Shown piece after piece: positions 17,000 to 62,323 of a stretch of 64,000 nucleotides of DNA (within the stretch, counting starts at the first letter, position 1; each line of letters begins with the position of its first letter). Position numbers and translations under genes: made by a program. A model generated the notes under the pieces. That model was not told the origin of the DNA. It saw only the letters and a program-made list of their open reading frames with translations, and did no database searches. This DNA is from Hymenobacter siberiensis. GTDB taxonomy: Bacteria > Bacteroidota > Bacteroidia > Cytophagales > Hymenobacteraceae. The DNA lies in assembly GCF_018967845.1 (NCBI RefSeq), contig NZ_JAHLZZ010000001.1:434001-498000 (forward strand). The letters run 5' to 3'.

Positions 17000-18706
17000 T
17001 TACCTTCCCAGCACCTCGCGCAGCGGCACCCCCGAGCAGCCGCTGGGCTCCTGAATGTGCAGAAACTGCGCGATGGTGGGCGCGATGTCAATGGTGTGCA
17101 CCGCAGCCGACGACTCGCCGTGCTTCACGCCCCAGCCCCAGAACAGCAGCGGCACGTGCGTATCATACGCGCCGGCCGAGCCGTGGGTGGTGCCTTTCAC
17201 TACGGGATAGGCGTAGGCTTCGAGCCAGCCGGGGGCCAGCACGGTGAGCACATCGCCGGAGCGCGGGGCGTAGAAACCGTTTTCCTGGTACATGCCCAGG
17301 CCCTCGCTCCAGTGGGCGCGCTGCAGGTCGAGGGCGGTGAGAGCCTGCGTGACGCCGGGCAGGGTGAGCAGGGCGGCGGCCACGTCCTGCTGGGCTTTGC
17401 CGAGGTCAATATTCTTCTTTTTGAGCAGCGGGCGGTTGAGGTACACCTGCTGGTTTTCGTAGCTGAGCACCCACTGGCCGGCGCCGTACTGGCGGGTGAG
17501 GGCGCGCTGCACCGAGTCGCGGATAACGGACGGCCCTACGCCGCCGCCGGGCAGCCGGTGGGCCTGCGAGAAGCCCACGGCATGGGCCGCCGCGTGGTCG
17601 GCAGTGAGGAAAACGAGGGTCTGGCCCCGGCCCACCTGCTTGTCGAGGGCCTCAAACAGGCGGGCCAGCTCGCGGTCGAGGCGCAGGTAGGTGTCCTCAG
17701 CTTCGATAGAGTTGGGGCCGAACTGGTGGCCCACGTAGTCGGTGCTGCTGTAGCTCAGGGCCAGGAAATCGGTGATGCCGCGCTGGCCCATCTGCTCCTG
17801 GCGCAGGGTTTCGAGGGCGAAGTCGGTGGTCAGGCTGTTGCCGAAAGGCGTGCTGCGGATGAGGTCGAGGTTCTGGGTGGGCGGCTGGGGGTTCTTGCCA
17901 TCGCCCGAGTTTTTGAGGACGGGCTGCACCGAGGCGGGGGCCCCGGCCGAGAGCACGGGCAGATCGTGCGGGAACACGGGCTTGCTTTCGCCCTTGAAAG
18001 CGGCTTCCCACGGCACGTCATCGGCCGAGCTTTCGGTGTAGCCGGCAATGGGCAGCAGCGTGTTCCAGGGCTTAGCCAGGTACTCGGCAGCGTGGCCAGC
18101 GGCGTTGAACTTCGTGACCCAATCGGGCAAAGTGGGCTGGTAGAAGGTGCTGCTGATGAAGGCGCCGTTGGTGCCGTCGTACCAGTAGGCGGCGGTGGCC
18201 GAGTGGCCGGCGGGCAGGATGCTGCCCCGGTCCTTCATGCTCACACCAATGGTTTTGGCCTGGAAATTCGTGGCCAGGCGCAGCTCGTCGGTGATGGTGG
18301 TACTAAGCATATAGCGCGGCGACATCTGGCCGGCGGCCGCCGTGCCGCCCACGGCCTGCACGGTCTTGTCCTCGGTCACGTAGGTTTCGCGGCCTTCCTC
18401 GCGCACCCACCAGTTGTTGCCGATAATGCCGTGCACGGCCGGCGTGGTGCCGGTGTACACGCTGGCGTGGCCGGGGCCGGTGTAGGTGGGCACGTAGTTG
18501 TAGTGGCAGCTTTCGTAGCTGAAGCCCTCGCCCAGCAAGCGCCGGAAGCCGCCGGCCGGGTACTTGCTCCAGTAGCGGTAAATGTAGTCGTAGCGCATCT
18601 GGTCGACCACGATGCCCACCACCAGCCTGGGGCGCGGCACGGGGTCTTCGGGTTTGGCGGCCAGCGTGGGCAAGGCCAGGAAAGCTAAGGCAAGAAGTTT
18701 CTTCAT
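17000..18706 (-). CDS. pafA: PafA-type alkaline phosphatase (nucleotide pyrophosphatase/phosphatase fold)
   Basis: A 568-residue exported phosphatase. The ATG at 18706 gives a signal peptide (MKKLLALAFLALPTLAA); the frame continues upstream but without secretory character. Metal and catalytic residues are recognisable: Asp35 in VVDQMRYDY, the nucleophile Thr76 in PTYTGPGHASVYTG, STDYVGHQFGP, and LTADHAAAHAVG. PafA-like enzymes of Bacteroidota are periplasmic, calcium- or zinc-dependent phosphatases that release phosphate from diverse monoesters, largely independent of phosphate repression. The gene is divergent from the HAD pseudogene with 69 bp between them; a -7-like TATCTTTG lies at 18733-18740 on the minus strand. 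A REP palindrome lies downstream at 16944. Confidence 0.9.
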   Translation of the reverse strand: MKKLLALAFLALPTLAAKPEDPVPRPRLVVGIVVDQMRYDYIYRYWSKYPAGGFRRLLGEGFSYESCHYNYVPTYTGPGHASVYTGTTPAVHGIIGNNWWVREEGRETYVTEDKTVQAVGGTAAAGQMSPRYMLSTTITDELRLATNFQAKTIGVSMKDRGSILPAGHSATAAYWYDGTNGAFISSTFYQPTLPDWVTKFNAAGHAAEYLAKPWNTLLPIAGYTESSADDVPWEAAFKGESKPVFPHDLPVLSAGAPASVQPVLKNSGDGKNPQPPTQNLDLIRSTPFGNSLTTDFALETLRQEQMGQRGITDFLALSYSSTDYVGHQFGPNSIEAEDTYLRLDRELARLFEALDKQVGRGQTLVFLTADHAAAHAVGFSQAHRLPGGGVGPSVIRDSVQRALTRQYGAGQWVLSYENQQVYLNRPLLKKKNIDLGKAQQDVAAALLTLPGVTQALTALDLQRAHWSEGLGMYQENGFYAPRSGDVLTVLAPGWLEAYAYPVVKGTTHGSAGAYDTHVPLLFWGWGVKHGESSAAVHTIDIAPTIAQFLHIQEPSGCSGVPLREVLGR

Positions 18707-18775
18707 GAAATGGCAATTGAGCGAAAGCCCGGCAAAGATACCGCCGCGCTTGCCCCGCCGTGCGTACGCCAGGTT

Positions 18776-19531
18776 ATGAAACCAGCCCTCCTCTTCGACA
18801 TGGACGGCGTGCTCGTCGACAACACGCCTGTGCAGGCCCGCGCCTTCCAGCTGCTCTTCCGCGACCTGGGCCTCACAACCCAAGCCCGGCCCCTGCTCAA
18901 ACGCCTCAACGGCATGCCCGCCGACGATATTGAAGCTGTTTAGAAAGCGTAGAGACGCATATTTGCGTCTCTACGCTTTCTAAACAGCTTCAATATCCAA
19001 CGCATGTTCCGGCACGCCATCCCCAAAAAGCAGCGCGACAGCTACGCCGAGCAGCGCGAGCTCCTCTACCGCACCCTGTACCGGAGCAAGCGCCGCGCCC
19101 TGCCCGGCCTCGTTGATTTCCTGCAAGCGGCCCGCGATGAGGGCTTTAAAATCGGTCTCGGCACCGGCTAGGGCGGCCCCACGCTCAGCTACATCCTCGA
19201 CCACCTCGACCTGCGCTGCTATTTTGACGTGGTCGCCGGCAAAGACGACGTGCCCCGGGGCAAGCCCCACCCCGACACCTATTCCCGCACCGCCGCCCGG
19301 CTGGGCGCACAGCCGGAAGACTGCATCGTGTTCGAAGATGCCGTGCTCGGCGAGCAGGCCGCCTACCGCGCTGGTATGCGCTGCGTGGCCGTGGCCACCA
19401 CGCTGGCGGCGAAAGATTTCCAGGCCCCGCTCACCGTCATCAAGGACTTCACGGGCTTCACGCCCGAGCACTTGCTGGAGCTGCTGGCGCAGCAGCCCGC
19501 AGCGCCGAAGGCCCGGAAAGGACGCGGGTAG
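18776..19531 (+). pseudogene. HAD-superfamily phosphatase (beta-phosphoglucomutase-like), interrupted
   Basis: The frame starts at ATG 18776 (MKPALLFDMDGVLVDNT, HAD motif I with the nucleophile Asp) and continues in the same frame to TAG at 19529. It is broken by two internal TAG codons. The first, at 18941, lies inside a 72-bp palindrome. The second, at 19169, falls in motif II (LGTG-stop-GGPTLSY). Downstream motifs survive: GKPHPDTYSRT with the motif III Lys, and IVFEDAVLGEQAAYRAG for motif IV. Intact relatives are about 220 residues and act on small phosphorylated metabolites. With the nonsense codon between motifs I and III, no full enzyme can be made without readthrough. Confidence 0.88.
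18926..18997. repeat. 72-bp perfect palindrome inserted in the HAD gene
   Basis: The arms at 18926-18959 and 18964-18997 are 34 bp long and perfectly complementary, with a four-base loop TATT. The core, 18949-18974, reads GTAGAGACGC...GCGTCTCTAC and so has GTAG/CTAC feet. The element is exactly 24 codons long and codon-aligned, so the gene frame is the same on both sides, but the left arm carries the in-frame TAG. Confidence 0.95.
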
Positions 19532-19677
19532 TCGTGCAACGGGGCGCCTCACCCCGTTGAACGACAGCACATCCCACATTTTATCCCCACCTTTCCGACG
19601 CGGGCCGCGTGGCCCGCCCGGGGCCCGGCAGCTGGGGCCGCCGGTTCTCTTTTTCCTACCTACCACTCATCTTTCCG

Positions 19678-28128: not shown

Positions 28129-28229
28129 GTCATGCCGAGCGTAGCCGAGGCCTCTCGCGTGCCCCCACTAATCTTTCAACGATTGAGTTGCTATTGCACG
28201 CGAGAGGCCTCGGCTGCGCTCGGCATGAC
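28129..28229. repeat. TGTCATGCCGAGC-family inverted repeat
   Basis: The arms, 33 nt each (28129-28161 and 28197-28229), differ at one position: GTCATGCCGAGC followed by GCCGAGGCCTCTCGCGTG. The loop is 35 bases. It lies between atpZ and the four-helix membrane gene. Confidence 0.92.
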
Positions 28230-47904: not shown

Positions 47905-48081
47905 TGTGGGGAATGTGATGATGTGGGAGATGTGATGATGTGGAAATGTGATGATGTGGGAAATATGGAAATATGGGGAATATGGGGAATGTATTAGATG
48001 TAGTCATTCCATCATATCTTCCATATTTCCACATTTCCCACATCATCACATTTCCACATCTTCCACATCTTCCACATCAAA
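47905..48081. repeat. Inverted array of GATGTGG-like quasi-repeats
   Basis: The 40-nt arms at 47937-47976 and 48021-48060 match at 39 positions and are made of GATGTGGAA/AATATGG units. Further units extend on both sides, filling the whole gap between yraN and the convergent lipoprotein gene. It is AT-rich compared with its neighbours. Confidence 0.93.
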
Positions 48082-62236: not shown

Positions 62237-62323
62237 GTAGGGGCGGGGCTTGCCCCCGCCCGGACGCTGGCACCGCCATTACGATTCCGTTCACCGACGG
62301 GCGGGGGCAAGCCCCGCCCCTAC
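62237..62323. repeat. Perfect inverted pair of REP-like elements, GTAGGGGCG family
   Basis: The 26-bp arms (62237-62262 and 62298-62323) are perfectly complementary. Each arm by itself is a small hairpin with a GTAG foot (GTAG-GGGCGGGG-CTTG-CCCCCGCCC), so the pair has the layout of a BIME. The loop is 35 bases. Confidence 0.92.

Follow-up and report, generated by a model that had tools for sequence, protein, structure and literature searches.

A perfect palindrome in a broken Hymenobacter siberiensis HAD gene as a probable MITE insertion with a REP-like interior

Insertion sequences of the ISL2 group generate 3-bp target duplications of the form ANT. For Amoebophilus, PMC3196728 lists elements of this group that measure 914-916 bp and encode 275-aa transposases. 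The Rickettsia palindromic elements (RPEs) lie in frame in ORFs whose products are likely functional proteins (PMC3733652). The same source (Di Nocera 2013) describes GTAG-tagged REP dimers, as well as REP dimers or elements inside longer palindromes in A. variabilis, T. roseum and H. neapolitanus, and the nesting of such repeats in longer palindromes is, as such, already known from the examples it gives. In the portions of PMC3733652 drawn on here, the GTAG repeats are given for phyla other than Bacteroidetes. Template switching between inverted repeats in yeast has as its outcomes arm homogenisation and spacer inversion (PMC8604942), and E. coli is known to undergo quasipalindrome mutation (PMC7202029).

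Here we examine a palindrome in a 64,000-nucleotide stretch of the Hymenobacter siberiensis genome (hereafter the window). We consider it very probable that the palindrome is a 60-bp MITE that inserted into a HAD gene with a 3-bp target duplication, with ends that come from a resident IS and arms that were matched by template switching. The inverted repeat at 18926-18997 consists of two 34-nt arms (18926-18959 and 18964-18997) that are 100% complementary and enclose a 4-nt loop, TATT. It is the only inverted repeat within the scanned interval 18700-19300, and arms of 34 nt in 64 kb are far beyond chance (by simple arithmetic, 4^-34 per start and loop size). An initial annotation of the sequence had described a perfect 72-bp palindrome in a HAD gene, exactly 24 codons long, codon-aligned and with an identical frame on both sides. 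Translation bore this description out: the first base of the palindrome is also the first base of a HAD codon, and the frame is the same to its left and right.

The HAD-family hydrolase gene (18776-19532, forward strand) was delimited by translation, Pfam matches and the orthologues of relatives. Pfam PF00702/PF13419 match both flanks of the insert; the right piece exceeds the curated cut-offs, and the 55-aa left piece falls slightly short of them. Across the insert the HAD frame translates as ...DDIEAV*KA*RR.... The left arm had been said to bring a TAG, and it does, but the insert holds two in-frame TAG codons and not one (18941-18943 and 18950-18952, forward strand, both borne by the element and identified by translation). 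A third in-frame TAG lies downstream and outside the element (19169-19171, forward strand), at the position of the Ser of GTGS in 13/13 correctly framed relatives. These 13 relatives, which have an open HAD orthologue, are those translated in the right frame among 17 (L009, L011, L014 and L015 were set aside as wrongly framed). All three TAG stops are also present in a second genome of the same species, G095. Because of the two stops in the insert and the third downstream, the gene is not open despite its matching frame, and we conclude that it is a HAD phosphatase gene broken by insertion. At the element, Rfam yielded only matches below the gathering score, mostly to hairpin-type microRNA models.

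We searched 39 genomes, including the window's own, for the region and obtained matches in 28, comprising the genome itself, 24 genomes of the same genus and three more distant ones with short matches. Beyond the species, the two nearest genomes are G011 (85-88% identity) and G019 (82-93% across its pieces); both align on either flank and lack a net 63 bp, with a nine-base stretch of the type GAR ATY ATY at the empty site. The insert is absent from 17/17 relatives aligned; these have 9 bp where the window has 72, so the net extra sequence is 63 bp rather than 72. The initial annotation had said that palindrome-free orthologues already holding the outer bases of both arms, in a non-palindromic arrangement, would count against its reading, and the 17 aligned orthologues hold neither the palindrome nor those bases.

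In G095 the insert occupies the same position, in an alignment of 1032 bp with 98.35% identity and 17 differences; the site there reads GATATT, 60 bp, ATTATC, with an intact ATT/ATT duplication. In the window the duplication is imperfect, with ATT on the left (18929-18931) and AAT on the right (18992-18994), one base off. A unit of 60 bp together with a 3-bp duplication accounts for the net 63 bp, and the outermost 6 nt of each 34-nt arm are target duplication or host sequence. The earlier suspicion of a captured insertion event is thus borne out by the empty site, the net length and the ATT duplication in G095. The simplest reading is a single insertion that predates the divergence of the window genome from G095 and postdates the separation of their lineage from its nearest relatives.

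The annotation had also drawn a parallel with Rickettsia RPEs, that is, an in-frame palindrome tolerated by a functional protein. The codon alignment, the length divisible by three and the unchanged frame on both sides are what such an element would show. Set against these are the two TAG codons in the insert and the third downstream, which are kept in both genomes of the species, and the finding that element length plus 3 is divisible by three in 21/62 elements of the family described below, which is the chance level. The in-phase insertion is therefore a chance of length, since 60+3 divides by three as the corresponding sum does in those 21 elements. The parallel fails because, with TAG read as a stop, the two TAG codons of the insert close the frame, and we give a tolerated RPE-like insertion next to no credence.

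The mobile unit, the 60-bp MITE at 18932-18991, is bounded by 16-bp terminal inverted repeats (TIRs) that it has in common with other short elements and with a 915-bp IS. The left TIR, GAAGCTGTTTAGAAAG (18932-18947, forward strand), was recognised by its repeat hits in the genome, and the right one (18976-18991, reverse strand) is its exact reverse complement. Allowing up to two mismatches, a search of the genome with GAAGCTGTTTAGAAAG gave 105 forward and 107 reverse matches, whereas a reversed-pattern control gave 1 + 1. In 86 fetched loci, which cover part of these 212 arm matches, we counted 62 unique short elements bounded by TIRs, the window's included; they are 60 to 200 bp long, the commonest lengths being 89 bp (24 elements), 150 bp (14) and 145 bp (9). 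The 3-bp duplications are identical in 40/62 elements and one base off in a further 14, compared with 5/62 identical in a control shifted 5 bp outward. Among the family duplications ATT, AAT, ACT and AGT are frequent, and GTT, GAT, TAT and others also occur.

Seven distinct copies of the 915-bp IS were found in the fetched loci (nine table rows, two elements being seen from both ends), with identical 3-bp duplications and with ends that are the MITE TIRs. The 276-aa ORF, an open frame examined in one copy, matches DUF4096 and DDE_Tnp_1 and scores 134.4 bits against NF033580 (NCBIfam IS5 family transposase; cut-off 110). In a plasmid collection, its closest match is a transposase on a Hymenobacter psoromatis plasmid (68%); at the DNA level, neither the 915-bp IS nor the MITE locus on contig C2 had a match in the same collection. 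Judged by its predicted transposase, the partner IS is a member of the IS5 family, and the narrower label ISL2-like, which is based on the 3-bp duplication and the size, is a lead only. The window element is short and non-coding, has TIRs in common with an autonomous IS and is flanked by a target-site duplication, as MITEs are. The resident IS5-family transposase is most likely to have moved it.

These results bear on a different origin raised by the initial annotation, which suggested that the outer 16 bases of each arm might have been copied, inverted, from the host; these bases are instead the TIRs of an IS5-type MITE family. If the palindrome had been made in place, a short core would have landed in the gene, and template switching would then have transferred adjacent host bases to the opposite arm. 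Such a history would suit position 18993, which lies outside the element and changed so as to lengthen the palindrome, and some arms in the family do read as copied onto each other. Yet the outer 16 bases are a genome-wide repeat, the arm sequence is absent from the site in 17/17 relatives, and the 3-bp duplication brackets 60 bp. An origin in place is thus very improbable, and an inverted host copy as the source of the outer arms is ruled out by the relatives' sites and the repeat counts.

The interior of the inserted MITE is a 26-bp palindromic core with GTAG feet, GTAGAGACGCATATTTGCGTCTCTAC (18949-18974), identified by its copies in the same genome and in the genus. The GTAGAGACG/CGTCTCTAC class to which it belongs has 5 copies in the window's own genome, the window's included (reversed control, 1), and occurs in 68/120 same-genus genomes. 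The annotation had suggested a REP-like element on account of the GTAG/CTAC feet of the core, and had held that absence of the core elsewhere would tell against it; the copies found agree with the annotation on both counts. In relatives the core unit also occurs in a longer head-to-head pair, most clearly in locus L117 (GAACGATGTAGAGACGCAA..TTGCGTCTCGTCGTTG, a spacer and an inverted partner), of which L112 and L113 hold degenerate versions, and the anatomy of this pair is that of the REP dimers in PMC3733652. We conclude that the MITE interior is not derived from the IS and is a GTAG-footed, REP-like palindrome that also stands alone. The core has a GTAG foot next to a stem-loop and dispersed copies, as REPs do, and we call it REP-like only because our check for flanking RAYT genes was low in power. 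A literature search with strings of the core returned nothing on such a repeat among the papers listed.

If the core were a REP or REPIN, it might itself be the mobile unit, moved by a RAYT (Y1) transposase. The GTAG foot, the hairpin and the head-to-head pairs of the core unit in relatives agree with this, as does the report that many RAYT-associated REPs start with GTAG (PMC2817692). The unit that inserted, however, is 60 bp with IS ends and not the 26-bp core, and GTAGAGACG was found in 0/25 Y1 loci of roughly 3 kb each (0/6 in the window's own genome and 0/19 in 10 same-genus genomes), a comparison of low power in which the 25 loci came from 7/11 genomes searched. A home-made Y1 profile had no match in 114 core-carrying loci, the profile being a poor one in which 2/7 rows were wrong-strand ORFs (L231, L232). 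Y1 genes exist, but none has the core beside it in the loci examined; we dropped RAYT as the mover and put the chance of this reading at very little. Movement of the 60-bp element by the IS remains the preferred explanation.

Other inverted repeats are present in the window. At 62237-62323 two GTAG-footed hairpins, GTAGGGGCGGGGCTTGCCCCCGCCCG and its inverse, stand head to head with 35 nt between them and are 100% complementary; the structure resembles a REP dimer, and its sequence is unrelated to the core. An inverted pair at 28129-28229 (GTCATGCCGAGCGTAGCCGAGGCCTCTCGCGTGC) is 97% complementary with its members 33 nt apart; a similar sequence, GTCATGCCGAGCGGAGCCGAGGC, is found in L138, the locus of a Y1 transposase match below the cut-off. 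An imperfect inverted array of GATGATGTGG/GGAAATATG units at 47917-48072 has longer inverted arms than any other repeat listed for the window.

The IS ends enclose several unrelated palindromes, of the GGTCATGC type in most rows, the GTCATTCTGAGCG type in L174 and the CCGGTCCGACCGG type in the G095 locus L171. The common 89/145/150-bp MITEs have the same IS ends and interiors unrelated to those of L171 and L174. It is as if the MITE interior were interchangeable between one pair of IS ends. We found no second copy of the composite of IS ends and core in the window's own genome, nor, searching with the exact arm, in 120 same-genus genomes outside its own species; the G095 copy has an arm that is changed relative to the window. 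A collection of genome contigs, which may omit records close to the window's genome, contained 0 copies.

We also considered whether the core lands in palindromes that already exist. Within the genus the palindromic flank of core copies extends by at least 1 bp in 24/34 and by at least 5 bp in 16/34, and outside the genus a flank extension is seen in 28/86. The idea was dropped as a general rule because the AACGAT flank in L117, which is degenerate in L112 and L113, is part of the longer head-to-head pair. Scoring 2 candidates per genome gave no usable empty site for cores.

Hairpins of comparable size have been noted elsewhere: the small dispersed repeats (SDR) of cyanobacteria, reportedly described by Elhai in 2008, are said to be 21-27-nt hairpins nested in minitransposons and other repeats. 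A scan of genome contigs for GTAGAGACGCA-N3..8-TGCGTCTCTAC returned at least 117 stretches. Among the 80 matches listed, Bacteroidota are the most frequent host by record title (most records being metagenome-assembled), and Spirochaetes, Planctomycetes, Cyanobacteria, Acidobacteria, Chloroflexi, Desulfobacterota, Fibrobacterota, Pseudomonadota, a Magasanikbacterium and others also occur among them. These 80 listed loci hold 86 copies, of which 78 are exactly 28 bp long. Conservation ends at GTAG/CTAC, with no further pairing in 58/86 and no flanking column dominated by one base. We picked 23 genomes from the 80 listed loci across phyla, each by choice holding at least one copy, and found copy numbers from 1 to 151 (a single copy in 6/23), with a reversed control of 0 in 23/23. 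Calothrix sp. HK-06 has the most copies (151), followed by a Methylomonas MAG (111), and the Magasanikbacterium has 12. The perfect palindrome of about 28 bp, GTAGAGACG...CGTCTCTAC, with its sharp ends, recurs in loci L248-L327 and genomes G134-G156 from many phyla, and appears to form a widely distributed family of very small palindromes in which the feet are fixed and the centers covary.

Beyond the insertion itself, the palindrome has changed between the two genomes of the species. Comparison of the window with G095 places 6/17 differences inside the 72 bp (6/72 versus 11/960; Fisher p = 6e-4), and in simulations two partner pairs arose among 6 random hits in 0.9%. The loop TATT (18960-18963) is reverse-complemented to AATA in G095, a flip that amounts to two partner differences between the genomes. 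In the arms, 18938 (G in the window, A in G095) and 18985 (C and T) have changed in step with their pairing kept. At 18993 the window has the derived base, to judge from the intact duplication in G095. This base completes the 72-bp palindrome by carrying it through the duplication to bases that already paired in the ancestral site (ancestral states being taken from the family consensus and G095, without a tree). The sixth difference, 18991 (C and T), leaves the outermost pair of the element broken in G095.

The window element thus combines symmetric arm changes with spacer inversion between close relatives, a pattern that fits template switching. The initial annotation had suspected template switching, which the flipped loop and the stepwise-paired arm change between two same-species genomes make plausible, and we infer that it produced both the arm changes and the loop flip. 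Hairpin cleavage and repair, or exchange between copies in the common elements, could be the source of part of the pattern.

To see how the rest of the family behaves, we compared it between the same two genomes. Among 75 fetched G095 loci, chosen for intact or nearly intact arms so that decayed copies are under-sampled, we found an orthologous copy for 31/62 elements, 13 identical and 18 differing. (In a first-pass comparison, 2/20 pairs lacked element bounds and were dropped.) A single interior inversion improves 5/13 equal-length differing pairs, or 5 of all 31 pairs. It reduces the differences from 11 to 3 in L208/L166 and from 5 to 3 in the window element, where a single inversion explains only 2/5 differences inside the 60 bp. 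In L173/L172, L177/L396 and L196/L371 it leaves a residual of 0. The elements in these three pairs have the common interior, exactly inverted between the same-species genomes and with no other difference in the element. No inversion improves the other 8 equal-length differing pairs. In three of the 13 remaining differing pairs (L064/L398, and L065/L397 and L182/L388, which are unequal in length), we read the alignments as one arm having been copied onto the other.

Counting gaps, differences occupy 106/3302 columns in the elements versus 189/35308 in the flanks. This excess comes wholly from the five inversion pairs (41/396) and five unequal-length pairs (50/571). Since the remaining 21 pairs differ at 15/2335 columns (0.64%), about the flank rate, we claim no extra point mutation: the palindromes do not have a raised rate of point mutation and undergo multi-base events instead. 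The claim that the elements as a whole mutate faster was dropped, the excess being gone once the inversion and unequal-length pairs are removed.

Matching arms and flipped centers might also arise by recombination between MITE copies, not by template switching within one. There are dozens of similar MITE copies in the genome, the three exact inversions are all in elements with the common interior, and exchange in opposite orientation with another family copy could also invert such interiors. But the homology available is very short, and the window composite is single in its genome, yet its loop flipped and its arms changed in step. As the composite has no other copy in the genome to exchange with, this route is the less likely one for the window element, and overall we judge recombination between copies unlikely.

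Under template switching, replication across the hairpin would copy one arm onto the other and yield identical arms, and the switching would sometimes invert the center of the palindrome. In the window strain, one such change would have carried the match from 60 bp through the duplication to host bases that already paired, giving 72 bp. A more speculative extension, to which we assign somewhat less than an even chance, is that a pan-bacterial family of perfect palindromes of about 28 bp, with fixed GTAGAGACG/CGTCTCTAC feet, sharp ends and covarying centers, is spread by some agent and captured, in this genome and perhaps more widely, as interchangeable interiors of IS-ended MITEs, and that template switching at the hairpin then maintains each composite as a perfect palindrome that flips.

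A puzzling perfect palindrome in a gene is in this way resolved into a transposon insertion with an empty site, a duplication and an IS partner. For bacterial palindromes, the family offers a natural data set for counting arm copying and center inversion between two genomes of the same species, and the core points to a very small repeat common to many phyla, the movement of which is testable.

Among described systems, the window element belongs with the IS-ended MITEs. Like IS5-derived (ISL2-like) bacterial MITEs, it is short and non-coding, has the TIRs of a resident IS and 3-bp duplications, and belongs to a family with tens of copies per genome; it differs from them in having a foreign palindromic repeat inside and in being perfectly palindromic over its whole length. 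With Rickettsia palindromic elements it has in common a palindrome inside a coding gene and a length divisible by three, whereas here the frame is closed by stops and the mobilised unit is an IS-type MITE. The core resembles GTAG-tagged REPs and REP dimers in its GTAG foot, its short stem-loop and its head-to-head pairs in relatives, but it has GTAG on both strands, as a perfect palindrome, and the palindrome that encloses it is a MITE with an IS partner. Cyanobacterial SDRs are reportedly alike in being small nested hairpins, and differ in host phylum. Finally, arm homogenisation and spacer inversion are the same outcomes as in the quasipalindrome template switching of E. coli and yeast, and are met here as natural variation within a species across a bacterial MITE family.
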